Assembly (NCBI RefSeq): GCF_000307775.2
Contig: NZ_KK020676.1
Coordinates: 1,199,767 to 1,263,766, forward strand
DNA: 64,000 nucleotides
Direction: 5' to 3'
Origin: Stutzerimonas stutzeri KOS6
GTDB taxonomy: Bacteria > Pseudomonadota > Gammaproteobacteria > Pseudomonadales > Pseudomonadaceae
This document shows positions 19,744-39,982 of this stretch, one piece after another. The notes beneath the pieces were generated by a model that saw only the letters and a list, made by a program, of their open reading frames with translations, was not told the origin of the DNA and searched no databases. The position numbers were made by a program, and so were the translations under genes. How positions within the stretch are numbered: position 1 is the first letter of the stretch; each line of letters begins with the position of its first letter.

Positions 19744-19942
19744 CATCGTTCTACACCGGCAGCAGCTCATACCAATATTTGCTTGGAGCAAAAGTCGCGC
19801 TGTTGCTACAGCTCAACTTGAACATCCAGTCAGGCAGTTAAAGACCCGCGTTGAAGGATTGGTTTACTATCCGGACGCGAACCAGAGCACATTTTTCTCC
19901 TGCCCGCTGATGGGCAAGAGGGAGGCCGGGAGAACAGGGACA

Positions 19943-21426: not shown

Positions 21427-21443
21427 CTGGCACGGTCCTCGCT
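21427..21443 (+). promoter_or_regulatory. Sigma54 promoter candidate of the hsdRMS operon
   Basis: CTGGCACGGTCCTCGCT fits the sigma54 consensus YTGGCACGrNNNTTGCW with one mismatch outside the invariant GG (21429-21430) and GC (21441-21442), which are separated by exactly 10 bases. It lies between the sigma54 activator gene and hsdR. Transcription would start near 21454, just before or at the first hsdR start codon, which favours the hsdR start at 21473. Confidence 0.75.
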
Positions 21444-21472
21444 GTAGGACCGACATGGACAGAATCGCCTTT

Positions 21473-24400: not shown

Positions 24401-24856
24401 GGCATGCTCGCCGCCAACCCGACCCTGCAGAAAATCCACAAGGGCGAACCCATTGCCGAGACCGAGCTGAAAACCCTGACCTCGACCATCCTCACCAGCC
24501 ACCCCGGCGTCAGCCTGGAGGTGCTCAACGAGTTCTACGGTCGCACAGCGGATCAACTGCACCTCACCGTGCGCGAGATCATCGGCCTGGATGCACACGT
24601 CATTGAGGAACACTTCAAGCAGTTCCTCCATGCCCATCCCAGCCTGACCGCCCAGCAGGTGCGCTTTATGAACCTGCTGAAAAACTACATCGCCCAGCAC
24701 GGCAGCATCGTGATTGAAACACTCTACGACGCGCCGTTTTCCAGCATCTCCCACGAGGGCATTGACGGCGTGTTCGCCCCCGCCGATGTCACCGAGCTGG
24801 TGGCCGTGCTCAAACCCTTCTTGAAGAACCCCGAACAGCCCGGCACATCCGCCTGA
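21473..24856 (+). CDS. hsdR: Type I restriction enzyme, HsdR motor/nuclease subunit
   Basis: 1,127 residues from ATG 21473 (MKSVNFEFLRP..., the usual start of this subfamily; an ATG at 21455 is also in frame). The order is: an N-terminal DUF4145-like helical domain (about 1-120), a coiled coil (145-185), the restriction nuclease with R-A-D-Y and V-I-E-A-K-K (about 249-266, PD-(D/E)XK type), and an SF2 translocase with ATGTGKT (about 385) and DESH (about 475). HsdR translocates unmodified DNA in the R2M2S complex and cuts it at a distance. hsdM starts 32 bases after its stop. All catalytic motifs are intact. Confidence 0.95.
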   Translation: MKSVNFEFLRPGNELLANLAGLAEAVLHIDPGSALTRLRSFAEELTKAIYKEELLPRMPQSSFYDLVKNPVFVDCVSKPLVHQINFLRIQGNDTAHGAEGDLRNAQLALKTAYQLAMYMAIKYYGTAQAAIPAFAEVKDPTAMLASLQKTVSSYEKELNQQQEALQSVMDKLEQERTRHLDKVDPPAKPDQQKRQQQSQQVADSLQWNEAKTRALLIDAMLLQAGWDVSNPAQVGQEVEVDFPGNVSGKGRADYVLWGDNGQPLAVIEAKKSGNVSLQAGREQARMYADGFERMGMQRPVIFYSNGYETFIWDDKQYNTYRPVYGIYSKDSLEYLAYQRQYRVPTLEKHNPELSIADRPYQIEAIKTVAAHFQQQRRKALIIQATGTGKTRVAIALAELLLRTGWAKRVLFLCDRKELRVQADDAFKQNLPSEPRCVIGETGKVDQTARIYIATYPGMMNRFAQLDVGFFDLIIADESHRSIYNKYRDLFDYFDALQVGLTATPVKFISRNTFDIFDCETTDPTFEFGLDAAINNEPPYLVPFRVKDLTTDFLRDGIHYNDLSDEQKRQLEEDLGEEEAKRTTIAGKDIGRKIFSEDTDRIILENLINNGIKDETGSLVGKTIVFAQRQDHAEHLEKLFCKLYPQYGTKVCKVIHNAIPHVDTLIKEFKKPDNDFRIAISVDMLDTGIDVPEVVNLVFAKPVKSWVKFWQMIGRGTRLRPNLFGPGKHKTEFLIFDHYGNFDFFEQEYQEPEDTGSKSLLQTTFEARLALAQAALRHNHAAAFDAAIALLRADINDLPDTSVAVKRELRAVHQLQQTQQLQQFDGKTQHLLANTIAPLMSARVLRDKHATALDKLIAGIQCCLVEQATCFEDGKIALLAELDKLAVNIQAVRQKDALIAEVRSADFWLQPSIDKLENSRQELRGIMKYRQTGSTGGYDMPSTSTGDDGVEVNERKVVIAGASEAMIYRRRLKDILAGMLAANPTLQKIHKGEPIAETELKTLTSTILTSHPGVSLEVLNEFYGRTADQLHLTVREIIGLDAHVIEEHFKQFLHAHPSLTAQQVRFMNLLKNYIAQHGSIVIETLYDAPFSSISHEGIDGVFAPADVTELVAVLKPFLKNPEQPGTSA

Positions 24857-24888
24857 TGGCCGTACAACCTACAGATCGAGACCACTGA

Positions 24889-26472
24889 ATGCTCACCGGC
24901 AAAATCCGCAACGATATCGACAAGCTCTGGGAAAAATTCTGGACGGGCGGCATCACCAACCCGCTGACTGTGATCGAACAGATCAGCTACCTGATGTTCG
25001 CCCGCATGCTCGACATGCAGGAAGACGTGGCCGAGCGCAAAGCCAACCGCACCGGCAAGCCCTTCGACCGTCTGTTCCCCAATACGCCGGAAGGCCAACT
25101 GCTGCGCTGGAAGAACTTCCGCAACATGAGCGGCAAGGAGCTGCACAGCCACCTCAAGCAGAAGGTCTATCCATTCTTCGCCAAGCTCGGTGGTGCCGAA
25201 GGCGAGGGCGGTGAGCGCGAAGGCCTTGGCCATATCAGCGAGTACATGCAGGACGCCGATCTGGAGATCAAGAACGAGTCCGTGCTCACTTCCGCCGTGG
25301 AGATGGTCAACGACCTGCCGCTGACCCAGAGCGATGTAAAGGGCGATATTTACGAATACCTGCTCAGCAAGCTCACCACCGCCGGCATCAACGGCCAGTT
25401 CCGCACCCCGCGCCATATCATCGACGCGATGATCGAACTGATCGCCCCGCAGCCCACCGAGGTGATCTGCGACCCGTCCTGCGGCACCGCCGGCTTTCTC
25501 GCCCGCACCATGGAATACCTCAACCGCGTGCATTCCAGCCCGGAAGGCACCTTCACCGACGAAGACGGCAACCTGCATTACTCCGGCGACCTGCTCGAAC
25601 CTTACCGCCAGCACATCAACAGCCAGATGTTCTGGGGCTTTGACTTCGACACCACCATGCTGCGCGTCTCCAGCATGAACATGATGCTGCACGGCGTGAA
25701 CGGCGCGAACATCCGCTACCAGGACACCTTGAGCAAATCCATCAAGGAGCACTACCCGCGTCAGGAGCAGGACTTCTTCGACGTGGTGCTGGCCAACCCG
25801 CCGTTCAAAGGCAGCCTGGATGAAACCAACACCAACCCCGACGTGCTCGGCCTGGTGAAAACCAAGAAGACCGAGTTGCTGTTCGTCGCCCATATCCTCC
25901 GCTCGCTCAAGCTCGGTGGCCGCGCCGCCGTGATCGTGCCGGACGGCGTGCTGTTCGGCTCATCCAAGGCCCACCAGCAACTGCGCCAGGAGCTGCTCGA
26001 CAACAACCAGTTGGAAGGCATCGTCAGCCTGCCCAGCGGCGTATTCAAACCCTACGCGGGTGTCAGCACCGCCATCCTGATTTTCACCAAGGGCGGCACC
26101 ACCGAGCGTGTGTGGTTCTACGACCTGCAGGCCGACGGCTACTCGCTGGATGACAAACGCACCGAGCTGAAAGGCGAGGGCAGCAACGACCTGCCCGATG
26201 CCATCGCCCAATGGCACAAATACCGGCAGATGGTCGAGGGCAACGTTAGCGCCAGCACCATCAACACCCTGTTCGGCGACAAGCGCAAAAAGGCCTTTGT
26301 CGTGTCCGCCGAGGATATCGCTGCCAACAAGTACGACCTCTCCATCAACCGCTACAAGGAAGTGGAGTACCAGCAGGAGCAGTACGAGGACCCGAAGGTG
26401 ATTCTGCAACGGCTAAAAGGGTTGGAGCAGGAAATCATGGCGGATCTGGATGAGCTGGAGAGGTTGCTGTGA
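24889..26472 (+). CDS. hsdM: Type I restriction-modification DNA methyltransferase subunit HsdM
   Basis: 527 residues, the usual HsdM length. An N-terminal helical domain (HsdM_N, about 1-140) precedes the N6-adenine methyltransferase core with the SAM-binding motif CDPSCGTAGFLA (about 194) and the catalytic NPPF (ANPPFKGS, about 302). It forms the M2S methylase that protects host DNA and the R2M2S nuclease. Its stop overlaps the hsdS start (TGATG), so M and S are translationally coupled. Confidence 0.97.
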   Translation: MLTGKIRNDIDKLWEKFWTGGITNPLTVIEQISYLMFARMLDMQEDVAERKANRTGKPFDRLFPNTPEGQLLRWKNFRNMSGKELHSHLKQKVYPFFAKLGGAEGEGGEREGLGHISEYMQDADLEIKNESVLTSAVEMVNDLPLTQSDVKGDIYEYLLSKLTTAGINGQFRTPRHIIDAMIELIAPQPTEVICDPSCGTAGFLARTMEYLNRVHSSPEGTFTDEDGNLHYSGDLLEPYRQHINSQMFWGFDFDTTMLRVSSMNMMLHGVNGANIRYQDTLSKSIKEHYPRQEQDFFDVVLANPPFKGSLDETNTNPDVLGLVKTKKTELLFVAHILRSLKLGGRAAVIVPDGVLFGSSKAHQQLRQELLDNNQLEGIVSLPSGVFKPYAGVSTAILIFTKGGTTERVWFYDLQADGYSLDDKRTELKGEGSNDLPDAIAQWHKYRQMVEGNVSASTINTLFGDKRKKAFVVSAEDIAANKYDLSINRYKEVEYQQEQYEDPKVILQRLKGLEQEIMADLDELERLL

Positions 26473-27614
26473 TGAATCTCGTTCCTTTTGGGAGTGTATG
26501 CAGCCTTCAGAACGGGAGAGCATTTAAGCCGGAGGAGTGGTCCGCCTCGGGCACTCCTATTGTTCGAATCCAAAATCTGAATGATGAAAGTAAACCTTTC
26601 AATTACTGCGATTTTGAGGTGGAAAAAAGATTTCATGTTGATTCGGGGGACTTACTTTTTTCTTGGTCTGGTACCCCAGGGACTTCCTTTGGTGCATTCT
26701 TTTGGAATCGGGGCAAGGGCTTTTTAAATCAACACATTTTTAGGGTTGATATTGATGAACGTCATATCGACAAAAACTATCTTCGATATGCAATAAACTC
26801 TAAGCTGGACTTGATTATTGACCAGGCTCATGGCGGAGTTGGCCTTAAGCACATTACTAAAGGCAAGCTTGAAGCAGTAGAAATCCCCCTCCCACCCCTG
26901 CCCGAACAAAAGCGCATCGCTGCCATCCTCGACAAGGCCGACGCCATCCGCCGCAAACGCCAGCAAGCCATCCAGCTCGCCGACGACTTCCTCCGCGCCG
27001 TGTTTCTGGACATGTTCGGCGACCCGGTGACCAATCCGAAGGGATGGGATCTGTTGCCGTTTTCAGCGGTCGGCACTCTAGATAGAGGTAAATCAAGGCA
27101 CAGGCCGAGAAATGATCCAGCTCTTTTGGGAGGTATTCATCCGCTAATCCAAACCGGCGAGGTGGCGAACTCTCGGGGGTATATCAAAGAGCACTCCGCA
27201 ACATACTCCGATCTTGGCTTGGCGCAGAGCAAGAAATGGGATGCCGGCACGCTATGCATAACAATTGCGGCGAATATTGCTAAAACGGGAATTTTGACTT
27301 TTCCGGCTTGCTTCCCTGATAGCGTGGTTGGATTTATTCCGAATAAGCATGTGACTGTTGAGTATGTTCAGCACTGGCTGGGCTTTTTACAGAAAAACTT
27401 AGAAGAGAATGCCCCTCAGGCTGCTCAAAAAAATATCAATCTTGAAATTCTCAGGGCACTTTTGATTCCCGTTCCGCCAAAGTCAGAGCAAGAACAGTTC
27501 AGTTCAATGGTGGCCGGCATTCTTGCCATTGAGGAGAAGATAGCCAGCTCCAGCGATGCATTAGGTAATGCATTCGATGCGCTAAGCCAAAAAGCCTTTT
27601 CCGGCCAGCTGTAG
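26472..27614 (+). CDS. hsdS: Type I specificity subunit HsdS
   Basis: 380 residues, two target recognition domains. TRD1 (about 1-135) is followed by the conserved spacer LPPLPEQKRIAAILDKADAI and a long helix (RRKRQQAIQLADDFLRAVFLDMFGDP). TRD2 (about 190-340) ends with IPVPPKSEQEQFSSMVAGI and the C-terminal helix. Each TRD reads one half of a bipartite target; the recognised sequence cannot be deduced. Both TRD-coding parts are visibly AT-richer than the conserved helix regions and hsdM, the mosaic expected from exchange of recognition domains. Confidence 0.95.
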   Translation: MNLVPFGSVCSLQNGRAFKPEEWSASGTPIVRIQNLNDESKPFNYCDFEVEKRFHVDSGDLLFSWSGTPGTSFGAFFWNRGKGFLNQHIFRVDIDERHIDKNYLRYAINSKLDLIIDQAHGGVGLKHITKGKLEAVEIPLPPLPEQKRIAAILDKADAIRRKRQQAIQLADDFLRAVFLDMFGDPVTNPKGWDLLPFSAVGTLDRGKSRHRPRNDPALLGGIHPLIQTGEVANSRGYIKEHSATYSDLGLAQSKKWDAGTLCITIAANIAKTGILTFPACFPDSVVGFIPNKHVTVEYVQHWLGFLQKNLEENAPQAAQKNINLEILRALLIPVPPKSEQEQFSSMVAGILAIEEKIASSSDALGNAFDALSQKAFSGQL

Positions 27615-27752: not shown

Positions 27753-28616
27753 ATGAGTGATCACAGCAAATTACTCGAAGATGCACTGAAGCAAGATAGT
27801 CAAATTGGTGCTGATTTTATTGGGAAGATATTCAGTCGGATCAATAGCGTTCTAAATTACCAACCGGTAGTCGGTGTTTTTGGTAAGACCGGCGCGGGCA
27901 AGTCCAGTCTGTGCAATGCGGTATTCGGCAAAGACGTGTGCGAGATCAGCGATATTGCCGGCTGCACGCGTAAGCCGCAGGAAGTCATCCTCGATATCGG
28001 TGGTAAAGGCATTAAACTGCTGGATGTGCCCGGCGTTGGTGAAAGCAATGAGCGGGATAAGGAGTATGCCGAGCTTTACCGTTCTATACTGCCTGAGCTT
28101 GATCTGGTGCTGTGGGTAATTAAGGGCGATGATCGGGCGTTCTCATCAGATGAAACATTCTATAAGAGTCTGGTGAGGCCTTATATTGATAAAGGGCGTC
28201 CATTTATTATTGCTCTCAATCAAGTCGATAAGATTGAGCCGTTTCGCGAGTGGGATGAAAGAGCTCAAAAGCCAGGGGCCAAGCAGGCAGAAAATATCGA
28301 ACAAAAGCGTATGAGTGTGGCAAAGATTTTTGATTTGCCCTACTCGTGCGTGATCCCAGTATCGGCCAATGAAAAATATGGGCTCGTTCAGCTGGTTGAA
28401 AAGATTATTGAGGTCCTGCCGGCGGATAAGAAAGCAATTGTTCTTGATTCTGTTAAGGCTGAAAACCGCTCTGAAAACTCAAAAGCAGAGGCCAAGGATG
28501 GTTTGATTGGCGAGATATTTAACATAGTGACCGATATTATTCCTGTTGCGCCAATCGCGAAGGCTGCAGTAAAGCTGGTAACAAAGGTGTTGAACAAAAT
28601 ATTCAGCTGGTGGTAG
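27753..28616 (+). CDS. YfjP/Era-like GTPase 1
   Basis: A 287-residue P-loop GTPase: G1 GKTGAGKSS (about 43), G3 DVPGVGE (about 89) and G4 NQVDK (about 155). The switch II DVPGxGE and the size put it with the YfjP/YeeP-like GTPases of prophages and defence islands (Era superfamily). The last 40 residues are hydrophobic and amphipathic (IVTDIIPVAPIAKAAVKLV), suggesting membrane contact. A good AAGGA ribosome site precedes the ATG. A second, different GTPase follows 3 bases after its stop, so they may work as a pair. It is AT-richer than hsdRM. Confidence 0.85.
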   Translation: MSDHSKLLEDALKQDSQIGADFIGKIFSRINSVLNYQPVVGVFGKTGAGKSSLCNAVFGKDVCEISDIAGCTRKPQEVILDIGGKGIKLLDVPGVGESNERDKEYAELYRSILPELDLVLWVIKGDDRAFSSDETFYKSLVRPYIDKGRPFIIALNQVDKIEPFREWDERAQKPGAKQAENIEQKRMSVAKIFDLPYSCVIPVSANEKYGLVQLVEKIIEVLPADKKAIVLDSVKAENRSENSKAEAKDGLIGEIFNIVTDIIPVAPIAKAAVKLVTKVLNKIFSWW

Positions 28617-28619
28617 TCA

Positions 28620-29321
28620 GTGGATATAACTAAGTACCGCCTCCACCGCGGTGATATCAGCGAGCTCTCAAAGCGCTTCCCCGCGTTTGACCAATTTAAA
28701 GACGCCGATCGTTTCGGCTGGCATAAGTGGGTCGATCAAACGACGGGGCTTGGATACTTGGAGCGAATGGTTTTATTTATCGGAAAGTCTGGCTATGGCA
28801 AGTCCACCACAGTTAACGCCCTGATCGGTCGGCCTATTCTTGAAACCAGTGACGTAGAGGCGTGTGCCCGCGAGTGCCAATGTCTCGACTTTCATATTGG
28901 TAATAACTATTGGCTGTCATTGGGCGATTTTCCGGGTATAGGTGAAAGCCTTGAGCGCGATGTGGAGTACTTAAAGCTTTATTCTGATTTTTTTAGTTAT
29001 GCTTCCGCGATCGTCCATGTGCTTAGGGCTGATACTCGGGACTATGCCGTAGACGAGCAGGCAGTAAGACATTTGACCCAGGCCTCAGAGCTTAAGCGCA
29101 AAGTCATTTACGCGCTTGGGCAATGCGACAAAGTTGAGCCCATCACTCGTCATCTGCATCAGGCTCCAACAGCTGAGCAACTAACAAATATCGACCTGAA
29201 GCTGCGCGAGGTTACCAAGGTGTTTTCGCCACATCATCCGGTTGTGCCTTATTCGGCTGAGACGGGGTGGAACATGGCTGTACTGAGTAATGAAATCGTT
29301 CGTGTTGCACTCGGTGAGTAA
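28620..29321 (+). CDS. YfjP/Era-like GTPase 2
   Basis: A 233-residue GTPase starting at a GTG three bases after GTPase 1. Motifs: G1 GKSGYGKST (about 55), G3 GDFPGIGE (about 103), G4-like GQCDK (about 167; the usual Asn is Gln). It lacks the hydrophobic C-terminal tail of its partner. Unequal tandem GTPases of this kind recall heterodimerising septin/dynamin-like GTPases, but no such activity is known for this pair. Confidence 0.8.
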   Translation: MDITKYRLHRGDISELSKRFPAFDQFKDADRFGWHKWVDQTTGLGYLERMVLFIGKSGYGKSTTVNALIGRPILETSDVEACARECQCLDFHIGNNYWLSLGDFPGIGESLERDVEYLKLYSDFFSYASAIVHVLRADTRDYAVDEQAVRHLTQASELKRKVIYALGQCDKVEPITRHLHQAPTAEQLTNIDLKLREVTKVFSPHHPVVPYSAETGWNMAVLSNEIVRVALGE

Positions 29322-29344
29322 TTGCTGAAACAAGGACTAACTCT

Positions 29345-30319
29345 ATGGCGCTTGATTTGAGCAACACCTTGGTTGTGGGCATCTCGGCAACTGCTCTGTT
29401 CGATATGAGCGAGTCCGATCAGATGTTCAAGGCGGCACTGGAGGCTGACCCGGAAAGCGTGATCGACAACTACCGTCGCTATATGCAGGAGCGCGAGGAC
29501 GAGCCACTGGTGCCTGGCACCGGGTATCACCTGGTCAAGGCATTGCTTGACCTCAACCGACATATGAAAGCTGAAGACACCTCCCCGCTGGTTGAGGTAG
29601 TGGTGATGTCGCGCAACAGCCCGGACACCGGTATTCGAGTGCTCAAGACCATTCGCCGCGATCAGTTGGCAATCACCCGTTCAGCTTTTACCGGCGGCGA
29701 ATCGGTGGCCGACTATATGGACGCCTTCGATGTGGACCTGTTTCTGACCACGAATGTGGAGGACGCGCAAAAGGTCATCGACTCCCGGCAGTGCGCCGCA
29801 GCAATCCTTAAGGCCCCGCCGGCTAATGCCCCGCAAATCCCCGAGGGACAGGTGCGTATCGCCTTCGACGGTGATGCGGTGCTGTTCTCCGACGCCAGTG
29901 AACTGGTCTACAAAACTCAGGGGTTGGATGCGTTCAAGGCTCAGGAAGATGCGCTGCAACATACACCAATGGATGAGGGCCCCTATGCCAGCTTGTTGAT
30001 AAAGTTGGCCCGTCTGCAGGAGCGCCTGCCCACCGGTGGCAGGGATTCTCCTATCAGAATCGCCATCGTTACCGCACGCAACTCTCCATCTGAGATGCGC
30101 GTCATTAACACCCTGCGTGCCTGGGGTGTGTATGTCGATGAGGCGTTCTTTTTGGGGGGTGTTGGCAAGCCCAAAGTCCTTCGCGCCTTCAACCCGCACA
30201 TCTTCTTCGACGACCAGGATGTGCACTTGGAAGCCGCTGCCAATCTGGTACCCTCTGGCAAAGTGCCATACCTTTCCCGCTCGGGCCTGGTAGATCTGCT
30301 ACCTGCGGCAAGCGGGTAG
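29345..30319 (+). CDS. Cytosolic 5'-nucleotidase family protein
   Basis: 324 residues with the pattern of the 5'-nucleotidase family PF06189 (cytosolic 5'-nucleotidase 1-like, HAD fold): VVGISATALFDM at the N-terminus, LVEVVVMSRNSPDTGIR (about 80-96), RIAFDGDAVLFSD with the aspartate pair (about 176-186), IVTARNSPSEMRV (about 240-252) and the C-terminal KVLRAFNPHIFFDDQDVH. Such enzymes hydrolyse nucleoside monophosphates. In a defence setting it could deplete nucleotides or remove a nucleotide signal; it lies in the same run as the CARF regulator and the GTPases. An AAGGA ribosome site precedes the ATG. Confidence 0.85.
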   Translation: MALDLSNTLVVGISATALFDMSESDQMFKAALEADPESVIDNYRRYMQEREDEPLVPGTGYHLVKALLDLNRHMKAEDTSPLVEVVVMSRNSPDTGIRVLKTIRRDQLAITRSAFTGGESVADYMDAFDVDLFLTTNVEDAQKVIDSRQCAAAILKAPPANAPQIPEGQVRIAFDGDAVLFSDASELVYKTQGLDAFKAQEDALQHTPMDEGPYASLLIKLARLQERLPTGGRDSPIRIAIVTARNSPSEMRVINTLRAWGVYVDEAFFLGGVGKPKVLRAFNPHIFFDDQDVHLEAAANLVPSGKVPYLSRSGLVDLLPAASG

Positions 30320-30349
30320 ATTCGTTTTTACGCATGCAAAGGAATGCCC

Positions 30350-32146
30350 ATGTCAGCGCAGAAGTACTCCGTTAATCAGCACCTGATCGAAACCTTGCTG
30401 ACTTGGGTGAAATCCGGGGAGATTGCCATACCGGAAATTCAGCGGCCGTTCGTGTGGGATGCCACCAAAGTGCGTGACCTGATGGACAGCCTGTATCAGG
30501 GCTTTCCGGTGGGTTACATCATTGCCTGGCGCAACCCGACGGTGAAGCTGAAAGACGGCTCGCTGGCCGAGGGCAAGAAGGTGTTGATCGATGGCCAGCA
30601 GCGGGTCACGGCGCTGACAGCCGCCATCGCCGGGCAGCAGGTGGTCAATCAGGATTACCAGCAGGTGCGTATCCGCATCGCCTTCCACCCCATCGAAGAA
30701 CGCTTCGAGGTCAGTAACCCGGCCATTGAGAAGGACAAAGCCTGGTTTGCTGATATCGCGCCCATCGTTAACGGTGAACATAAGGCACATAAGGTCGGTC
30801 GCGACTACCTGGAGCTAAACCCTGACGTCGATGAAGACCTGCTTTACGAGCGGCTGGACCGGTTGTGCGATATCACCAAGAAGCAGATCGGCCTGATCGA
30901 GCTGGCGGCAGATCTGGATATCGAGACGGTCACCGAGATCTTTATCCGCATCAACTCCAAGGGTGTGGTGCTTAGCCAGGCGGACTTTGTCATGTCGAAG
31001 ATCGCCGCTAACGAGGAGTTCGATGGCAACACCCTGCGCAAGGCCATCGACTACTTCTGCCACCTGTCCATTGCGCCGGAGTTCTACGCGCATATCGAGA
31101 ACAACGATAAGACCTTCGTGCAGACCGAATACTTCAAAGCTATGCGCTGGCTGAAGAGTGAAAACGACGACCTCTACGACCCCAGCTACTCGGACATGCT
31201 GCGCGTGGCCTTCACCACCAAGTTCAATCGTGGACGGCTGTCGGATCTGGTAGGGCTGCTCTCTGGCCGTAACTTCGAGACGCGTAGCTACGAGAAGGAA
31301 ATCGAAGAAGCGTCCTTCAAGACCCTGAGCGAAGGGGTCAGGGAGTTCATCAATGAAACGCACTTCAAACGCTTCCTGATGATCATCCGTTCGGCCGGCT
31401 ACGTGGACAGCTCCATGATCGGCTCGGTCAACGCGCTGAACTTCGCCTATGTGCTGTACCTCAAGCTCAAACGCGACCTGGGCAACAACCCCAATATCGA
31501 AAGCTGGGTGCGCCGCTGGTTCGTGATGTCGCTGCTTACCGGGCGCTATTCGGGTTCGCCGGAGTCCAGGTTCGACAAGGACATCAAGGCCGTGCACGAG
31601 CGAGCATTTGCTGACGTACTGGCTGATATCGAAGCGGCTGAACTGTCTGATGCCTTCTGGGACTTCGGTCTGCCGCAGGCCTTGAACACCTCGTCCGTCA
31701 ACGCCCCGGCTATCAAGGTGTTCTGGGCCGCACAGGCCAATCGCGGTGACAAGGGCTTCCTGTCCAAGGACATCACCGTGCGCGACATGCTCACGCACCA
31801 CGGTGACATCCACCACATCTTCCCGAAGAACTTCCTCAAGCAGCGGGGGCTGCTCAGAAGCAAGTACAACCAAGTGGCCAACTACGTGTACGTGCAGCAG
31901 GAAGTGAACATCAAGATCGGCGACACCGCCCCGGCCGCTTATATGGCGAAGGTCTTTGACCAGTGTCAGCAAGGCGCTGCGCACTACGGTGCGATCATCA
32001 GCCTGGATGCCCTTAAGGCCAACCTGGCGGCCAACTGCCTCCCGGATGACCTCGCTGCCTATCAGCCTGAGCAGTTCGAAACCTTCCTCACCGAACGCCG
32101 CCGACTGATGGCGCAGAAGATCAAGCAGTATTACTGGGGGTTGTAA
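30350..32146 (+). CDS. DUF262 / HNH-type nuclease (GmrSD-like)
   Basis: 598 residues from ATG 30350, chosen over 30344 because AAGGA then sits at normal spacing. The N-terminal DUF262 domain has [18 protein letters not shown] and the signature [13 protein letters not shown] (about 78-90), a ParB-like nucleotide-binding fold. The C-terminal part carries an HNH-like motif, [14 protein letters not shown] (about 485-498), with N-x-x-N-Y-V downstream. GmrSD and relatives are type IV restriction enzymes that cut modified phage DNA using NTP-dependent DUF262 activity; this protein probably belongs there. The operon ends after it, with 160 bp to the next gene. Confidence 0.85.
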
Positions 32147-32257
32147 GCGGTCATGTGGTGTAAATAAATTTTCAGCTGCATAAGAAATATTACTTATGTC
32201 GCAATGCCCTCAGCCTTTCCGAGTGCATAACATGCTGTTTTCAAAGGAACACATGAG

Positions 32258-32274
32258 TTGGCACGGAATGCGCT
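32258..32274 (+). promoter_or_regulatory. Sigma54 promoter candidate of the TerY-P operon
   Basis: TTGGCACGGAATGCGCT has a perfect -24 box (TTGGCACG) and GC exactly 10 bases after GG; the -12 box GCGC differs from TTGC at two positions. The predicted start is near 32285, about 28 bases before the vWA gene, whose start has a normal AAGGAAG ribosome site. The -24 box is shared with the hsdR promoter. Confidence 0.6.
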
Positions 32275-32312
32275 AAAGGATAGAAACACCTGATTACCAA
32301 GGAAGTATGAAA

Positions 32313-32984
32313 ATGTCAGAACTCAAAAAATTCCAAGTCCAAACCGCTCGCCCGCTGCCGATCATCGTATTGGCCGACACTAGCGGCAGTATGTCGGTCG
32401 ACGGCAAGATCGAAGCCCTTAACAAGGGGCTCAAGGACATGATCAACAGCTTTGCTGGCGAAAGCCGTCTGCGTGCAGAGCTGCAGGTCAGCTTGATCAC
32501 CTTTGGCGGCAGTCAGGCTGAGTTGAACCTCCCGCTAACCCCCGCTCATCAGCTAAAAAGCTTTACCCCGCTTGTGGCAGACGGAATGACTCCGCTGGGC
32601 GGTGCGTTGACGCTTGCCTGCGACATGATCGAAGACAAGGACTGCATCCCCTCCCGTGCCTACAAGCCGGTAATCGTGTTGGCTTCCGACGGTTACCCGA
32701 ATGATGACTGGCAAGGCCCCTTTGCTCGGCTGATCAATGGCGAACGCTCTTCAAAGGCCACTCGCTTTGCCATGGCTATTGGTGCTGATGCGGATGAAGC
32801 CATGCTCGGCGACTTCGCCAATGACCCAGAGGCCCCATTGTTCCGCGCTGAAAATGCGGGCGATATATATCGGTTCTTCCGCGCAGTAACTATGAGCGTC
32901 AGCGCGCGCAGCCAGTCGGCCACGCCTAATCAATCAACTCCCTTGCAGATCCCCAGCTCTGACGATCAAGACTGGGAGTTCTGA
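32313..32984 (+). CDS. TerY-type von Willebrand A protein
   Basis: A 223-residue single vWA domain with the metal-ion site DTSGSMS (about 22), the MTPLGGAL loop (about 92) and ASDGYPNDDW (about 124), all needed for MIDAS metal binding. A disordered Ser/Gln/Pro tail follows. TerY-like vWA proteins work with a PP2C phosphatase and a kinase (the TerY-P triad), in which the vWA protein is the presumed phosphorylated adaptor. ATG 32313 is preferred over 32307 because of ribosome-site spacing. The stop overlaps the phosphatase start (TGATG). Confidence 0.9.
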   Translation: MSELKKFQVQTARPLPIIVLADTSGSMSVDGKIEALNKGLKDMINSFAGESRLRAELQVSLITFGGSQAELNLPLTPAHQLKSFTPLVADGMTPLGGALTLACDMIEDKDCIPSRAYKPVIVLASDGYPNDDWQGPFARLINGERSSKATRFAMAIGADADEAMLGDFANDPEAPLFRAENAGDIYRFFRAVTMSVSARSQSATPNQSTPLQIPSSDDQDWEF

Positions 32985-33673
32985 TGCGCTTGTTGGCAAG
33001 CGGGGCTTCGGTGCGGGGCCCTGCTCATTTTTTGGATGGCTCACCGAATCAGGATGCCCTGTGCGTCAGCGGCCTCACAGGCGGGTGGTGCATTGCAGTG
33101 GCTGACGGACTGGGCAGCCGCCCGCTTAGCCATCTGGGTTCGCGTAAAGCCGTGCAACTGTTCAAGCAACTCGCCCGCCAACAGCGTGGCATTGCCCATG
33201 AGTCGGTAGCCCACAACCTGCGTGATGCCTGGCTGGCTCACTTTGGTGAGCGCTATCAGCTGCATGAAACAACCTGCCTCTGGGCCAGGGTAAACGATCA
33301 GGGTCACGGCGTGGCGGGCCAGGCTGGCGATGGCTTATTGCTAGTCAGGAGTCAGGGTGTGTTCAGAATCGTAACTGATGCGCGCCAAGGCTTTGGCAAC
33401 CAGACCACGACCTTGGCGCAGGCGGCAGAGGCCGACTGCAGCCTAACTTTCGCGTTGTGCCAGGCCGGTGACGGCGTGTTGCTGATGACCGATGGCATCT
33501 CGGATGACCTGATTCCGGAACAACTGGAACCATTCTTCGATGCGATTTATCAACGTCAGCTGAGCATTAGCAAACGCCGCATGCGCCAGTGGCTGACCCG
33601 GGAATTAAACGGGTGGTCCACTCCACGTCATGGCGATGACAAGACAATCGCTGGAATATTCAGAACGGATTGA
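32984..33673 (+). CDS. PP2C-family protein phosphatase of the TerY-P triad
   Basis: 229 residues with PP2C metal-binding motifs: D-A-L near residue 25 (SPNQDAL), VADGLGSRPLSHLGS (about 39, the DG metal site), GDGVLLMTDGISDD (about 163, second metal site) and a C-terminal DDKTIAGIF (the third). It should remove phosphates added by the kinase encoded next. Its stop overlaps the following reading frame, so vWA, phosphatase and kinase are translated as a unit. Confidence 0.9.
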   Translation: MRLLASGASVRGPAHFLDGSPNQDALCVSGLTGGWCIAVADGLGSRPLSHLGSRKAVQLFKQLARQQRGIAHESVAHNLRDAWLAHFGERYQLHETTCLWARVNDQGHGVAGQAGDGLLLVRSQGVFRIVTDARQGFGNQTTTLAQAAEADCSLTFALCQAGDGVLLMTDGISDDLIPEQLEPFFDAIYQRQLSISKRRMRQWLTRELNGWSTPRHGDDKTIAGIFRTD

Positions 33674-33678
33674 AGCAG

Positions 33679-35109
33679 ATGACCGCGACCACAAAAGCGG
33701 CGGGTAACCGCAGCGTAAAGGACACCAAAGGCTCAGTTTATGAATTGCGTGGAGAGCTGAGCAGGGGTGGGCAGGGTATCGTTTACCACACTCAGTATCC
33801 CCAAGTTTTGATCAAAGGCTTTACCAATAAGGATGCCCATGCGCGCTTGCGTTGGAGCCGCCATATTGCCTGGTTGACTCGCGCGGAGCTCAGCGGGCTG
33901 AAATTGGCGAGGCCGCTAAAGTTGCTGGCTGAGCCACGCTGTGGCTATGTCATGGAGCTTATGGATGGGTTGGTGCCACTGCAGAGTCTGTTTGACAGCT
34001 TCGTCGCTGCTGAAGACGAGGCATCAGCCGATTACCTGCGCCAAGGCGGCTTGCGGCGTCGCATCCGCATTTTGAGCCAACTCGCCCGCACACTGAACCA
34101 ACTGCATGCCCGTGGGATGCTTTATGGTGATCTCTCTCCCAGCAATATCTTTGTGTCAGATGATCCTGACCATGCAGAAACCTGGTTGATTGATTGCGAC
34201 AACATCAGCCTTGAGTCTCACAGTGGTTTGACCGTGCATACAGCGGACTATGGTGCGCCCGAGGTTGTCCGTGGCGATGCGCTTCTGTCCAGCCTGACGG
34301 ACATTTGGAGTTTTGCGGTCATCGCCTATCAGTTGCTGACTCATAACCATCCGTTTAAGGGTGAGATGGTCAGTGACGGCGAGCCCGAGGAAGAAGAAGC
34401 TGCGCTTCGCGGCGAGCATCCCTGGATCAATGACACGCAGGACGATGCCAATCAGTGCTTTGCCAACTTGCCGATTCAGTTGCTTGAACACAGCAAGCTA
34501 CCCGAGTTGTTTGGCCGTTGTTTTGAAGCGGGCCTGCGCAATCCTGTTGAGCGTCCAAGCATGGCTGAGTGGCTTGAGGCTTTGGCAGAGATTGATGAGC
34601 GCATTTATTGCTGCTCAGGTTGTGGCGGCACCACTTTGCTCCCAGCTGGGCTTGGTTCAGCTGAAGATGCTGAGTGTTTTTTCTGCGACAAGCCTGTTGA
34701 TAGCCGGCTGGTCTTGCTTGAAGAGTTCATCTCCTTGCCGGCAGAAGAAGATTCTGCGGAAGGTGAGAGGTATGCAACCGGGCGCAAGGTCTGGCTTCAG
34801 CCTGGTGTTGAGATTGAGCTGAAGCGTCTGATGCCAACGTATAACTATGACCAATGGCCTGCAGATCATATCCGGATCGAATACAACGAAAAGGGTCTGG
34901 TTATTCATCCGCTAGCAAAGGAAAAACCTCAACTTCAACTACAGCGAGGAGAGGCCAAAAAGCCTTTGGAGCGTCAACAAGGGTTACCCGAAGCTCTGCG
35001 TGGGCAGCATAAAGAGCCGTATCTGATTCACGTGGGTCTGCCGGAAAAATCCAGCCTTGGTGCAACCGAGCTTGGGAAGTCCTATGTCATTTGGCAGTTC
35101 AGGTGGTGA
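33679..35109 (+). CDS. Serine/threonine kinase-like protein with zinc ribbon, TerY-P triad
   Basis: About 476 residues from ATG 33679; a TTG at 33670 overlapping the phosphatase stop is also possible. The kinase domain has the glycine loop LSRGGQGIVYHT, the catalytic loop YGDLSPSNIF (HRD replaced by YGD) and the metal motif IDCDN instead of DFG, the atypical forms usual for this family. After the kinase (about 290) comes a zinc ribbon, CCSGCGG...CFFCDKP (about 311-337), then a beta-rich C-terminal segment possibly recognising a partner. It probably phosphorylates a threonine or serine on the vWA or on a later protein of this operon. The helicase gene follows after 6 bases. Confidence 0.88.
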   Translation: MTATTKAAGNRSVKDTKGSVYELRGELSRGGQGIVYHTQYPQVLIKGFTNKDAHARLRWSRHIAWLTRAELSGLKLARPLKLLAEPRCGYVMELMDGLVPLQSLFDSFVAAEDEASADYLRQGGLRRRIRILSQLARTLNQLHARGMLYGDLSPSNIFVSDDPDHAETWLIDCDNISLESHSGLTVHTADYGAPEVVRGDALLSSLTDIWSFAVIAYQLLTHNHPFKGEMVSDGEPEEEEAALRGEHPWINDTQDDANQCFANLPIQLLEHSKLPELFGRCFEAGLRNPVERPSMAEWLEALAEIDERIYCCSGCGGTTLLPAGLGSAEDAECFFCDKPVDSRLVLLEEFISLPAEEDSAEGERYATGRKVWLQPGVEIELKRLMPTYNYDQWPADHIRIEYNEKGLVIHPLAKEKPQLQLQRGEAKKPLERQQGLPEALRGQHKEPYLIHVGLPEKSSLGATELGKSYVIWQFRW

Positions 35110-35115
35110 TGGCAT

Positions 35116-38100
35116 ATGGAACTTAAAGACTTTCCCATGCTGTCCGAGGATGTGCTGATTCTTTCCACGGATGAGCGCATTGACCGCTTTCAAATCGGCC
35201 AGGCGATTTTCATCCAGGCTTATCAGGATGAATGGCTGGCAGTGCAGGGCGACGAACGCGTCAAAGTAAGCTGCTCCTCCGCCGATCAGGATCTTTTTAG
35301 CCGGCTGGCTCTGCGAGATCAGGTGCGTTGGCTACTGACCAGTAAGCAGGGCAGCAATAGGCTTTTGCTGCAGTACTGTGCGCCGGTTGAAGTGTCTGCC
35401 ATGCAGCTTGAGATTGGGGTCGATGAGCTGATTGCCGATGACCTCTTCAGCAAGCAGGAAATCGCAGATAAGAACATAGACCTGGCTTGCCGCTGGTTAG
35501 CCGATCAGTTCCTTGTACGTGGTCTTGAAGAAGGCGACTGGCTTACAGTTGCTCGATTCAGCAATAGCACCTCAAAAGGTGGTTTCCAGTTGCTGGGCAA
35601 GGGCTGGCGTGCGGATATTGAGCAACTGCAAGATCGTGGTCTTCTGATCAAACGCATTGCACGTCACTCGCGTCGTGACGGCGCCTATTCGTTACTGATC
35701 GGTCAGTTCGAGTTTCGTGATGCCTCCGTTGCTGCAGTTCTCCAAAGTGCAAGCCAGCAAGCATTGCTGGAGGCTGCCCTGCGCGACAGCGCCAGTTATC
35801 TTGAGTTGTGGAATCTCTACAACGATAAAGAATGGCAGGGCGCATTAAAGACGGCTGAGACCTTGCGCGCACTGCGCTTCGTTCAATGGGAGGGCGTTGA
35901 AGAAGGACGTGAGAATGTATGGCGGTTGACCCCGAAATCGCTGGATGACTATAGGGAGTTTCGTGAGCGTTGGCGCTCACTTGAACTGCCATCAAACACA
36001 CAAGTTGATCTCGGTGTGGAGCCTCCAGATTGGGCGGAGGAGCTTGTTACAGAAGAAGCGAAGGCCGATCAGAATACTCCGCGAGGCAGTATACGTTTTG
36101 AGCGTGACGCTATTGTTTTCAAGCCGGCTTCAACCAGGCCCGGAGTCCGTCCAAAAAAGCCGGAAGGCTGGCTCTACCTGTCACTAGCGGGGCACCGTAC
36201 TGTTGGTAAAAGACGTCTTGCTGCCAAACAGTCGATTGATTCGGGCAAGCGCCTGCCACAACTAAAATGGTTGCTGGAAGGTGTAACTGTGCCAGCTTCA
36301 AGGCGACGGACAATGAATGGGTTGACGCCCTATGCGCTGGAAACCTTCAAAGGCGGAAAGCCGACTGAGAAGCAGGCGCTGGCGTTGGATGCAGCACTCA
36401 ATACTCCTGATATCGCCATCATTATTGGTCCGCCCGGAACAGGGAAAACGCAGGTCATCGCCGCACTTCAGCGTCGCCTTGCGGAGGAAACCCAAGATAG
36501 AAATATCGCTGCACAGGTTCTTATCAGCAGTTTCCAGCACGATGCAGTAGACAATGCGCTGGATCGTAGCGATGTATTTGGCTTGCCGGGTGCTCGTGTG
36601 GGCGGCAAGCGCGGAGCACAAGATGAGGTGTCGGTAATTGATCCCTGGCTGGATCGGCAAGGCACTCATTTGCAGGAGAAGATCGCTGAGCAATACAGCA
36701 AGTATCCTGAACTGCAACTTATCCGGGACCTGACGACCCGATTAGCCCTGGCCAGAATGGCTGGTATTTCGCCAAGCCATCAAGCGCAGACCTTCACCGG
36801 TATTTTGAGTGCACTGCGTGAGCTGGATGGTAACGGTTTGATCCTGCCGCCAAAGCTTGAAACCCGACTTGAAGACTACATCGAGCACTTGCAAAGACAG
36901 AGCCCGGCTGCCAAGACGAATGGACAACAGTTTTTCGCTTTGAGGCGAATCCGAGCATTGCGGGTAGAACGAAATTCTTTCAGCGACGACGGGCCTGATC
37001 GTGCCTGGGACTTGCTGAGTTGGTTGAAGCGCGACATCGCTGACGCGAGCACCGACTGCCTTGCGTTGCTGCAAGAAGCGGCAGACAGCTCGCAGCCCTC
37101 GGATGCGCTGTTGCATGACCTGGCGGCCTTGAAAGACACACTGCTCGATCAGTTCATGCCCGATTACCGACCGGCGCAACTCAGGCAGCAGGCAGACCCT
37201 GAAGCCCTTGCTTTACTCGATGAAATTGATCGTTTTGTTGAGCACAGGCTGCGCCAACGAAAGCAGGGCGTGGCTTGGGTACTGGAACAACTTGCTGACA
37301 GCCTAGAAATGGACCGAAGGGCTGCGCAGGCAATTGTTTATGAGTATTCCATGGTAGTGGGTGCTACCTGTCAGCAGGCAGCAGGCAAACAGATGGCAAG
37401 CCTTAAGGCTCTCCCTGGTCTGGATAGCCCTGGTGTCGACTTCGATACTGTAGTGATCGATGAGGCGGCCCGAGCGAACCCTCTAGACCTCTTTATCCCC
37501 ATGTCCATGGCCAAACGCCGTGTGGTGTTGGTCGGGGATGACCGGCAGTTGCCGCACATGCTTGAGCCAGACATCGAAGGGCAGCTACAAGAAGAACATC
37601 TGCTCACCGAACTGCAGCTGATGGCTTTTCGCTCCAGTCTTTTCGAACGCATGCGGGTCAAGCTGCAAGACTTGGAAAAGGTAGACAACATTCGCCGTGT
37701 CGTAATGCTGGATACCCAGTTTCGTATGCATCCATTACTCGGTGAGTTTGTCAGCAAGCAGTTTTATGAATCGGTCGGCTTGGGCCAGATTCACACCCTT
37801 CGCCGTGCCGATGAATTTGCATTTACCGAAGCATTTCTCGCCGGTCTTGGTCCGTTGGCCGCTGATTATCGTGACCGAATTTGCCAGTGGATTGATGTGC
37901 CTGCATCGCAAGGCAAAGATCAGCGCAGTGGTACAAGCCGAGTCAGAGAGGCTGAGGCGCAACGCATCGCGGATGAGGTGGTCAGGCTTCTGAAAGCGGG
38001 GGGAGACAGTCTTTCGATCGGCGTTATTACCTTCTATGCAGCCCAGCGCGACTTGATCATGGAAAAACTCGCTGAGCAGCGTATCGGCGATACCCCTCTG

Positions 38101-38508
38101 ATGGAGTTCCGCAATGGGGCCTTCGAGCCGCACGAGCATTTCAAGTGGGCAAGAAAGGTACGTGGGGACGGCTCAGAAAGTCTGGAGGAAAGATTACGGG
38201 TCGGATCGGTCGACGCCTTCCAGGGTAAAGAATTTGATGTTGTGCTCTTGTCTTGCGTTCGTACCTATACCCCCGCAAAGCCTCTGCATAACGCCGACGA
38301 TAATGCCGAGCGTGAAAAGCAACTAAATCGGCAGTTTGGTTTTTTACGCTTACCCAACCGAATGAACGTAGCCATGAGTCGTCAGCGGCAAATGCTGATT
38401 TGCGTCGGGGATGCGGCTTTAGCCACTGCACCTGAGGCTACTGAAGCTGTACCAGCGCTGGCTGCTTTCCATCAGATGTGCGGAGGTGAACGTGGCCGCA
38501 TTCGTTGA
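35116..38508 (+). CDS. UPF1/DNA2-like superfamily 1 helicase
   Basis: 1,130 residues. The helicase half starts with Walker A GPPGTGKTQV (about 440) and continues with Walker B VIDEAARANPLDL (about 780), motif III VVLVGDDRQLPHML (about 802), RMHPLLGEF, SVDAFQGKEFDVVLLS and MNVAMSRQR near the C-terminus, as in the DNA2/UPF1/SMUBP branch of SF1. A 430-residue N-terminal region contains no recognisable nuclease. It overlaps the next gene by 17 bases. In TerY-P contexts such helicases are thought to process DNA or RNA under control of the phospho-relay; that is known from comparative genomics only. Confidence 0.9.
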   Translation: MELKDFPMLSEDVLILSTDERIDRFQIGQAIFIQAYQDEWLAVQGDERVKVSCSSADQDLFSRLALRDQVRWLLTSKQGSNRLLLQYCAPVEVSAMQLEIGVDELIADDLFSKQEIADKNIDLACRWLADQFLVRGLEEGDWLTVARFSNSTSKGGFQLLGKGWRADIEQLQDRGLLIKRIARHSRRDGAYSLLIGQFEFRDASVAAVLQSASQQALLEAALRDSASYLELWNLYNDKEWQGALKTAETLRALRFVQWEGVEEGRENVWRLTPKSLDDYREFRERWRSLELPSNTQVDLGVEPPDWAEELVTEEAKADQNTPRGSIRFERDAIVFKPASTRPGVRPKKPEGWLYLSLAGHRTVGKRRLAAKQSIDSGKRLPQLKWLLEGVTVPASRRRTMNGLTPYALETFKGGKPTEKQALALDAALNTPDIAIIIGPPGTGKTQVIAALQRRLAEETQDRNIAAQVLISSFQHDAVDNALDRSDVFGLPGARVGGKRGAQDEVSVIDPWLDRQGTHLQEKIAEQYSKYPELQLIRDLTTRLALARMAGISPSHQAQTFTGILSALRELDGNGLILPPKLETRLEDYIEHLQRQSPAAKTNGQQFFALRRIRALRVERNSFSDDGPDRAWDLLSWLKRDIADASTDCLALLQEAADSSQPSDALLHDLAALKDTLLDQFMPDYRPAQLRQQADPEALALLDEIDRFVEHRLRQRKQGVAWVLEQLADSLEMDRRAAQAIVYEYSMVVGATCQQAAGKQMASLKALPGLDSPGVDFDTVVIDEAARANPLDLFIPMSMAKRRVVLVGDDRQLPHMLEPDIEGQLQEEHLLTELQLMAFRSSLFERMRVKLQDLEKVDNIRRVVMLDTQFRMHPLLGEFVSKQFYESVGLGQIHTLRRADEFAFTEAFLAGLGPLAADYRDRICQWIDVPASQGKDQRSGTSRVREAEAQRIADEVVRLLKAGGDSLSIGVITFYAAQRDLIMEKLAEQRIGDTPLMEFRNGAFEPHEHFKWARKVRGDGSESLEERLRVGSVDAFQGKEFDVVLLSCVRTYTPAKPLHNADDNAEREKQLNRQFGFLRLPNRMNVAMSRQRQMLICVGDAALATAPEATEAVPALAAFHQMCGGERGRIR

Positions 38509-39982
38509 GTCGGGCTTGTACCTAAAGTTTGATGCTAAGCCCAGAGGTAAGAGAAAGGCATTGCTTTGGCCGGTACTGGTACACCGTGTTCTGTATCCAG
38601 ACCCCAAACGGCCACAATTGAACCTACTGCAGCGAGCGGTACTTGGTTTGGTTCGTGCCAAAACTGTACGTGCAGAGGATCTTGCTGAATTGACTGGGCT
38701 TCACCTGAATCTGATCAAGTTGATACAGGCTCAGTGTGTCAGTAATGGATGGCTGGTTGATAACGCAGATGCCCTGACACTCAATGGCGAAAGGCTCTTG
38801 GATGATCAGGATGTCGCTGATACCAATATGAAATCCGGCTATTTATTGCAGGACGCGCTCACCGGAAAATTTTGGCCTCGCCTTGTTGTGCAACTGAGCC
38901 AAATGGAGCCTGTGGACCAAATGGCTCGGTTCCCCGAGTTCATGATCGAGAGGAAAACAGGTCAATCCATCCGGCCCTTCAAGATTGCCGCTGCACATAC
39001 CAAGCTACCAAGCCTAGATCATGAGTCGTTGATGTTTGCCTACCGTGATTACCGTGAGGATTACTCGGCGTCACGGCAACTGGGAGAGTCAACGGGTTTA
39101 CCTGAGCACGTTAGTTTGCAAGGTGTTCAGCGTCTGGACGCCATTGCTCAGCCCGCTCGGGTTCTGGTTTGGGTAACCGCCGATGAGCATGGACAGGGTC
39201 TGTGGGCTGTCAAGGACCCTTTTGGATTGCGGGAGAATGCGTGGTGGTTGCAGGAATCACTTCTTCAAGCGATTGAGCAGGATGATCGCTTGCTTGCTCA
39301 TCTTGAGAGCCTGGTCGGTATTGCGCGAATAGAAAACCAGCCTGTTGATGAGTGGCTTGAAGCGCTGCGCAAACAGACAGAGCTTCAGGTGCTGATTGAA
39401 TATCCCTGGGTGGAGCGCCAGCCAGATATCAAACGGCATCTGGCGGCATTGCTGGTGCGTCGGGAGAAGCTGCAGCAGGGTGATAACAGCCACCAGGAAC
39501 TGGATGCGGCCCTAGTAGAAAGTCAGAAGCTGCTTGAGGTGCTGATGCAGTGGCTAATTCGCACCTACCCCGCGGATGTGGGTGTATTGCCCACGCAGCA
39601 AAGACTCGACTTTAAGCTCAATCAGAACCTTCTCAAGGCTTTGCAGGTGCCTGCCTTAACAGCTGATGTCATCAATCTACTGGCTAGGCAAAAACTTGAT
39701 CAGGTCATTCGCGCCTGCGCTACACCTGTTTCCTCACTAAAGGCACTGCTTTTTGCTGCGGTCATGGGAACACTCAATGAATCACGCCATCCTCTCAAGG
39801 TGATGGGGCAAAACGAGCTGCAGCTTAAGAAGCTGTTGGAGCTGGCAGATCTGCGCAATCAGAGCAGCCATGCCCAAAGCAGCTTTACAGGCAAACAACC
39901 AATTCAACTCACGACACGTGTGGCGCTGGACAGTATCCAGTTCGCCCTGAGCTTTACTGCACAGTTTAAGGAATGGATGTAA
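38492..39982 (+). CDS. Winged-helix protein of the TerY-P operon
   Basis: 496 residues from GTG 38492, chosen because a GGAGG ribosome site sits 5 bases upstream. Residues about 45-95 (RAVLGLVRAKTVRAEDLAEL... NGWLVDNADALTLNGERLL) are a winged HTH. The remainder is a largely helical protein with a central beta segment (PARVLVWVTADEHGQGLWAV) and no catalytic motif that I can identify. The gene overlaps the helicase (17 bases) and the AAA+ gene (1 base). It could tether the complex to DNA. Confidence 0.75.
   Translation: MAAFVESGLYLKFDAKPRGKRKALLWPVLVHRVLYPDPKRPQLNLLQRAVLGLVRAKTVRAEDLAELTGLHLNLIKLIQAQCVSNGWLVDNADALTLNGERLLDDQDVADTNMKSGYLLQDALTGKFWPRLVVQLSQMEPVDQMARFPEFMIERKTGQSIRPFKIAAAHTKLPSLDHESLMFAYRDYREDYSASRQLGESTGLPEHVSLQGVQRLDAIAQPARVLVWVTADEHGQGLWAVKDPFGLRENAWWLQESLLQAIEQDDRLLAHLESLVGIARIENQPVDEWLEALRKQTELQVLIEYPWVERQPDIKRHLAALLVRREKLQQGDNSHQELDAALVESQKLLEVLMQWLIRTYPADVGVLPTQQRLDFKLNQNLLKALQVPALTADVINLLARQKLDQVIRACATPVSSLKALLFAAVMGTLNESRHPLKVMGQNELQLKKLLELADLRNQSSHAQSSFTGKQPIQLTTRVALDSIQFALSFTAQFKEWM

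Follow-up and report, generated by a model that had tools for sequence, protein, structure and literature searches.

Predicted sigma54 promoters with a common candidate tandem-dyad enhancer point to joint control of restriction and a CoCoNuT operon by a CARF-domain activator in Stutzerimonas stutzeri

The 64-kb stretch of Stutzerimonas stutzeri KOS6 DNA analysed here (hereafter the window) carries a defence island beside an integrase gene. The genes that concern us are these:

18156-19421, forward strand: tyrosine integrase adjoining the island.
19943-21424, forward strand: CARF-AAA+-HTH sigma54 activator (RtcR_PspF2); likely start GTG at 19943, the listed reading frame opening at 19859.
21455-27614, forward strand: type I restriction-modification genes hsdR, hsdM and hsdS.
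27753-32146, forward strand: two GTPases, a 5'-nucleotidase and a GmrSD-like protein, without a promoter composite (defined below) of their own.
32307-32984, forward strand: TerY-like vWA protein (Pfam VWA); start probably at 32313.
32984-33673, forward strand: PP2C-type phosphatase of the TerY-P triad (Pfam PP2C_2).
33670-35109, forward strand: protein kinase of the TerY-P triad (Pfam Pkinase).
35116-38508, forward strand: SF1 helicase, CnuH-like (AAA_11/AAA_12, IGHMBP2-family helicase).
38486-39982, forward strand: CnuE-like protein with a HEPN-type RNQSSH (RxxxxH) motif, recognized by eye from the motif given in the available text of PMC11090510.
39973-42426, forward strand: CnuB-like coiled-coil McrB GTPase with NHD (NxD), read by eye (AAA_5, McrB similarity).
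42426-44228, forward strand: probable CnuC (McrC-like) partner, the last gene of the set.

The genes from TerY onward resemble a known system. A TerY-P triad stands beside a CnuH helicase, as in Type II CoCoNuTs; the McrB-like GTPase has NxD and CnuE has one RxxxxH, both as in that type and both identified by eye. By these sequence features the TerY operon, with its RtcR-like regulator, appears to match a Type II CoCoNuT. In Pfam, no HEPN profile matched 38486-39982. The last gene had neither a Pfam nor a PADLOC match; its positional counterpart in Rhodoferax is annotated DUF2357. A cluster of radical-SAM and PHP-domain genes follows the CoCoNuT (44965-48894) and has no promoter composite.

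What kind of protein is the activator? It matches the PADLOC profile RtcR_PspF2 over its whole length (745 bits, profile positions 1-481 of 481), as well as Pfam Sigma54_activat. Against the RtcR equivalog NCBIfam NF038308 it scores 331.9 bits, below the cut-off of 650 bits, a score reached nowhere in the genome; the RtcR profile also matches 15 other genomic places, which are sigma54 activators of other kinds. By profile score, then, the protein resembles RtcR without being RtcR. Its first 200 residues were modelled with AlphaFold (mean pLDDT 76, residues 144-200 being poor). When this model was searched against the PDB with Foldseek, the top matches were Csm6 and other CARF or ring-nuclease proteins, and a CARF fold is predicted for the N-terminal part. 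Four genomes of the same genus (G034, G041, G053, G019) hold short copies of the activator's first ~130 residues, 83% identical and with one internal TGA.

How is the TerY operon switched on? The intergenic region in front of it contains the following:

32160-32193, forward strand: candidate enhancer (UAS), with GTAAATAAATTTTC and ATAAGAAATATTAC as tandem dyads at a spacing of 20 bp, the first 99 bp and the second 79 bp ahead of the -24 T.
32228-32240, reverse strand: IHF-like site TAACATGCTGTTT, one mismatch from the consensus, between UAS and promoter.
32258-32274, forward strand: putative sigma54 -24/-12 element of the TerY-P/CoCoNuT operon, TTGGCACGGAATGCGCT; predicted +1 near 32285.
32299-32305, forward strand: ribosome-binding site AAGGAAG; best-fitting start ATG 32313.

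A preliminary description of this DNA had proposed that a sigma54 promoter with the same -24 box as that of hsdR precedes TerY, and its particulars agree with the sequence: TTGGCACGGAATGCGCT at 32258-32274 has GG at 32260-61 and GC at 32272-73, ten bases apart, TGGCACGG is common to this site and the hsdR site at 21427-21443, and the gap before TerY measures 160 bp (32147-32306). The distance between the two sites, given there as 12 kb, is 10.8 kb. The site has TGGCAY at -24 along with GG-N10-GC, as expected for sigma54. Its -12 half is two bases off TTGC, as had been claimed, reading GCGC at 32270-32273 and keeping only the invariant GC. The base preceding GC is C, A, T or G across 14 TerY-side sites, the GC itself being required by the search. 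We scored sites by requiring GG-N10-GC and counting matches at eight further positions of the consensus. Eight sites in the window, TerY and hsdR sites included, score at least 6/8 on either strand. Judging from the six others, about 0.008 would be expected in one strand of one gap, in keeping with the rarity attributed to such a match. The ribosome site expected before the gene start is also there: AAGGAAG fits ATG 32313 better than 32307, and most close TerY homologues start at the ATG equivalent to 32313. Sigma70-type initiation had been named as evidence against the proposal; no sigma70-like promoter was found at 31900-32500, and a terminator sought in the same interval was not found either. 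The genome contains rpoN, and a candidate UAS lies upstream of the site, as a sigma54 promoter calls for.

The candidate enhancer consists of two copies of the dyad RTAA-N6-TTAY. Such pairs lie upstream of TerY sites generally: in 48 fetched regions, scanned for spacings of 15-27 bp, 21 of 33 pairs are exactly 20 bp apart and no other spacing occurs more than three times. The first dyad (at most one mismatch) begins 98-100 bp before the -24 T in 9 of 18 TerY loci. At up to two mismatches the window holds tandem dyads only at 32160-32193 and at 21069-21102, inside the activator gene. The former is the sole tandem dyad with at most one mismatch in the 4.95-Mb genome; the latter is one of five with two mismatches, the other four of which have no sigma54 site of at least 5/8 at a like distance. 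The reversed control of the pattern matched three genomic places. Between UAS and promoter, an IHF-like site with at most one mismatch was found in 13 of 19 promoters against 4.2 expected, a comparison that covers chosen promoters and takes its expectation from mononucleotide shuffles; the best match sits 30-33 bp ahead of the -24 T in 14 of these promoters. Two other patterns had been tried. An initial UAS model, GTAAA-N4-TTTAC, proved overly strict and gave way to RTAA-N6-TTAY, and the loose pattern TTAC-N70-100-TGGCAYG-N6-GCW was uninformative in the genome itself (five matches against three in the control). A strict composite pattern, which is rare and which the window's own promoter does not fit exactly, had no matches in 369 genomes of the class (reversed control three) and gave no new islands.

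Is the arrangement conserved? We collected TerY relatives from 145 related genomes (six with matches, this genome included), a contig collection (17 loci) and plasmids, then fetched the activator-to-TerY regions and scanned them for composites, defined as a sigma54 site of at least 6/8 with a perfect dyad 75-110 bp upstream. Loss of GG and GC in homologous islands had been named as grounds for rejecting the promoter. Instead, a composite precedes TerY, or the small gene or genes before it, in 14 of 19 loci with an activator ortholog on the same contig; GG/GC invariance within the conserved set is built in by selection on score. The other five are Polaromonas (a dyad and a 5/8 site), G660 (a dyad with one mismatch), Aquitalea (its dyad displaced to 130 bp) and two loci, those of Rhodoferax and G687, in which the activator's own promoter is followed directly by TerY. 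A locus cut at TerY (L053) and one with a truncated activator (G114) were excluded from the counts.

The site is kept in Pseudomonas islands whose upstream genes are unrelated, for example as TTGGCACGGAATGCGCT or TTGGCATGAAATGCGCT, and appears in Marinobacter as CTGGCACGCTTCTAGCT and CTGGCATGGTTCTCGCA. Where a small gene stands before TerY, the site precedes that gene: DUF4258-like frames in Motiliproteus and Polaromonas, and in G148 a TIR gene together with a short frame. TerY and the activator are divergent in G809; there the site, TTGGCACGATACCCGCT, is oriented toward TerY, and a perfect dyad lies 96 bp ahead of it. Mean pairwise identity over the 14 loci is 0.70 for the site and 0.32 and 0.31 for its flanks, the 0.70 being partly by construction because loci were picked by site score. 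The counts are not independent events, since many of the Pseudomonas loci are closely related. Sequence comparison confirms 32258-32274 as a real site, conserved in related islands.

These observations bear on a simpler account, in which the TerY operon is read mainly by read-through from the hsdR promoter as part of a superoperon, any internal promoters being independent of the RtcR-like protein. Internal promoters of that kind have been suggested for CoCoNuT islands in the available text of PMC11090510. The genes do lie on one strand at close spacing from 21455 to 44228, with no terminator at 31900-32500. Against this, a sigma54 site and UAS are conserved before TerY in differing gene neighbourhoods, and the gap yielded no sigma70-like promoter. 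Some read-through may still occur; as an explanation of how the operon is mainly transcribed, we regard the superoperon as unlikely.

The composite occurs in 13 of 18 TerY loci with the activator and in none of 14 TerY-like loci without a known linked one (p 2.5e-5, uncorrected for relatedness; adding G809 gives the 14 of 19 above). These controls include four plasmids, on which the activator was sought on the plasmid only, three distant loci whose activator status was unchecked (L054-L056), and a second, unlinked TerY copy in G036. All of them except Aeromonas simiae are distant homologues (28-57%). In Aeromonas simiae (L042) TerY is 90% identical, no activator ortholog was found in the genome, and the promoter survives as a relic, with degraded dyads at -100 and -80, an intact TTGGCATG and the GC of the -12 box lost. 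Plasmid pKF715A counts against the link to the activator: its TerY promoter is intact and the plasmid carries no activator. There (L097 18000-22000) the TerY triad is present, but what comes after the kinase is a series of short frames that do not resemble the intact set. No DNA match was found in E. coli genomes.

The second predicted promoter of the island lies directly behind the activator gene, and its candidate enhancer within that gene:

21069-21102, forward strand: candidate UAS of the hsdR promoter, ATAAGAAAATTTCC and GCAAAAAATCTTAT, inside the activator gene at a peak of synonymous constraint.
21263-21275, reverse strand: IHF-like site CAAGGTATTGATC in the activator gene, in the second-highest region of synonymous constraint.
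21427-21443, forward strand: putative sigma54 -24/-12 element of hsdR, directly behind the activator stop codon.

The T of TGGC in the hsdR site is the fourth base after the stop of frame 19859-21424. Of the 45 activator genes whose 3' end could be read, 38 have a sigma54 site of at least 5/8 at the stop codon. Three of the remaining seven have TGGCA only and four have no site at the stop codon; among these four, G770 and Polaromonas have one further downstream, that of Rhodoferax overlaps the 3' end of the gene, and in G782 none was found there or elsewhere.

When a UAS was sought some 99 bp ahead of the hsdR site, none was found; the tandem dyad lies 359 bp upstream of that site. We measured synonymous identity without reference to any motif in 44 activator genes, excluding G760, whose activator is in two pieces. 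The top eight overlapping 8-codon windows start 111-118 codons before the stop, with an excess of up to 0.31 against an SD of 0.057 between codon windows. Translated, this stretch gives DKKISAEAKNLI; as DNA it shows the same tandem dyad as the TerY UAS. Because the constraint peak coincides with the conserved dyad, the activator coding sequence seems to carry the enhancer for the hsdR promoter. At 356-365 bp before the stop codon ends, 31 of 45 genes have the dyad with at most two mismatches; in another two it fits in a different register, and twelve carry three to six mismatches. GC3 is 0.25 at the dyad against 0.68 for the gene. The IHF-like site recurs in 37 of 45 genes against 5.8 expected, a figure confounded by conserved amino acids.

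Three islands (G809, G671 and Motiliproteus; L155 501, L149 577 and L091 968, read orientation) have tandem dyads just upstream of the activator gene. Those of G809 serve the divergent TerY, and in G133 a pair in the corresponding position is spaced 21 bp. Autoregulation of the activator is possible in some islands on the strength of these dyads.

The start of hsdR has features of its own. In 28 activator loci the start codon following the activator is placed exactly 27 nt downstream of the TGGC T (here 21428-21457), a spacing at which a sigma54 transcript would begin at or next to the ATG, giving a leaderless-like hsdR mRNA. An inverted repeat, CGGTCCT-N6-AGGACCG, lies between the -24 box and the ATG (21433-21452). 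Over 24 distinct sequences 79.8% of its cells are paired and 20 have changed on both sides, against 28.6-52.4% pairing in slid versions; the folding energy is not exceptional (z -1.25). In mRNA arising by read-through, such a hairpin would mask the ribosome site.

That restriction and the TerY-P operon form one regulon had been suggested on the condition that both respond to the CARF activator. The proposal gains independent support from a tandem-dyad UAS common to the two promoters. Might a different sigma54 activator fire a genuine promoter before TerY, leaving restriction outside its regulon? The genome offers candidates in its 15 other matches to the RtcR profile. Within the window the same UAS is confined to the activator gene and the region ahead of TerY, which argues otherwise, as do the tracking of composites with the activator ortholog and the decay of the promoter in Aeromonas simiae, where no ortholog was found. 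We consider a different activator quite improbable.

Does the promoter code reach beyond these two operons? The activator's CARF half was found in 26 of 390 genomes of the order, and 24 activator islands that had played no part in defining the motif served as a held-out set. These contain eight composites on the forward strand and one on the reverse, where resampled sequences (first-order Markov, 20 repeats) average 0.05; the reverse-strand composite is the one before the divergent TerY of G809. Sigma54 sites of at least 7/8 number 24 against 3, with a resampled mean of 3.3. The discovery set has 14 composites on the forward strand and none on the reverse, counts that are partly circular because the motif was derived from those loci, so that the fair test is the one on held-out islands.

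Further defence modules also carry the code in other islands. Three of the held-out forward composites (G753, G804, G770) stand before a small gene and DruH of Druantia III (PADLOC above 1000 bits). The others precede DUF2130/DUF2779 (G703), MoxR-vWA-HEPN (G660), DUF4258 and TerY (both G700) and an unknown gene (G591). DruH occurs in 14 of the 390 genomes, and a composite precedes it in five of seven with the activator against none of the seven others (Fisher p 0.01; three of these five are also in the held-out count, and the other two, in G660 and G700, fall outside the stretches fetched earlier). G676 and G671 have the activator and Druantia III and showed no composite in the 1.5 kb upstream. 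A Pseudomonas luteola plasmid of the discovery set also has a composite before DruH. The window's own DruH-like protein (Druantia III, 360 bits; 5319-8741, reverse strand) lies outside the island, has no composite and is one of the seven others. From their position behind such promoters, the DUF2130+DUF2779 sets (G703, and G760 with imperfect dyads) and the MoxR-vWA-HEPN set (G660) are candidate defence modules (L147, L146, L152).

The held-out replication also bears on whether the site before TerY is a chance match or a functionless evolutionary remnant, as its off-consensus -12 box and the decayed copy in Aeromonas simiae might suggest. With about 0.008 matches expected per gap, and with conservation, a UAS, an IHF-like site and replication in held-out islands, we find this hardly credible.

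Computation shows the elements, how they are spaced and conserved, and that they are linked to the activator. What do they do? We consider it very probable that a sigma54 promoter at 32258-32274 answers to the CARF activator and that hsdR and the TerY-P/CoCoNuT operon form one regulon. In this mechanism the CARF domain would sense a ligand, either RNA ends with 2',3'-cyclic phosphates, by analogy with RtcR, or a cyclic oligonucleotide. The activator encoded at 19943-21424 would bind the dyad pair at 32160-32193 and be brought to the polymerase by a bend in the DNA, probably made by IHF; its ATPase would then open the promoter at the -24/-12 element driving the TerY-P/CoCoNuT operon. The same protein would bind the tandem dyad within its own gene and fire the hsdR promoter behind it. 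Restriction and the CoCoNuT would thus be one regulon, induced together from separate sigma54 promoters. Given the enhancer-dependent sigma54 anatomy and the precedent of RtcR, the likeliest function is to activate restriction and CoCoNuT together in response to RNA damage or a nucleotide signal.

The same start signal and activator site before unrelated modules suggest that one sensor-activator probably switches several defence modules together. We think it likely that the UAS-IHF-sigma54 unit is a transferable membership tag, by which unrelated modules join one CARF-sensed immune regulon while the activator gene carries the enhancer of its nearest target in its coding sequence. Members of this regulon would probably include type I restriction-modification, CoCoNuT, Druantia III, DUF4258, DUF2130/DUF2779, MoxR-vWA-HEPN and TIR modules. 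If the tag is real, it could locate further, unknown defence modules. Little is known of how defence islands are switched on, and the arrangement described here offers a concrete and testable control code: one RNA- or nucleotide-sensing activator, an enhancer motif, a promoter type and several immune modules. Used as reporters, the promoters could identify the CARF signal. In the literature searched, which covered few subscription papers, we did not find these promoters, the enhancer code, an intragenic enhancer or a multi-module regulon.

The WYL-domain regulators of defence islands are not known to use sigma54. They resemble our case in that one regulator family lies near diverse defence systems, and differ in that the family is another one (PMC9122601, available text). 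The closest precedent in mechanism is RtcR of E. coli, whose CARF domain inhibits its activity, so that the protein without it is constitutively active in vitro, and whose target promoter, that of rtcBA, combines a UAS with an IHF site and a sigma54 element (PMC9650030, available text). A CARF-AAA+-HTH activator, a sigma54 promoter, a UAS and an IHF site are thus common to both systems. RtcR, however, drives a single repair operon, adjacent and in the opposite direction (PMC7790460, available text), whereas several defence modules are involved here, and our activator reaches 332 bits against the 650-bit RtcR cut-off.

RtcR-like control of restriction-modification or CoCoNuT loci has already been predicted (PMC11090510, PMC4012209, available texts). 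Makarova et al. 2014 described RtcR-like CARF proteins as predicted sigma54-dependent activators, often found with restriction-modification genes; the available text of that paper gives no sites and no multi-module regulon (PMC4012209). Bell et al. 2024 described Type II CoCoNuTs with an RtcR homologue, in which type I restriction-modification and other ancillary defence genes are followed by TerY-P, CnuH, CnuE, CnuB and CnuC, as here, and suggested that the RtcR-like protein promotes transcription via a UAS (PMC11090510, available text). In their account, so far as the available text goes, the island is an apparent superoperon, and promoter or UAS sequences are not given. Our analysis refines that superoperon picture: here the TerY operon, and elsewhere further modules, have a putative sigma54 promoter and UAS of their own.
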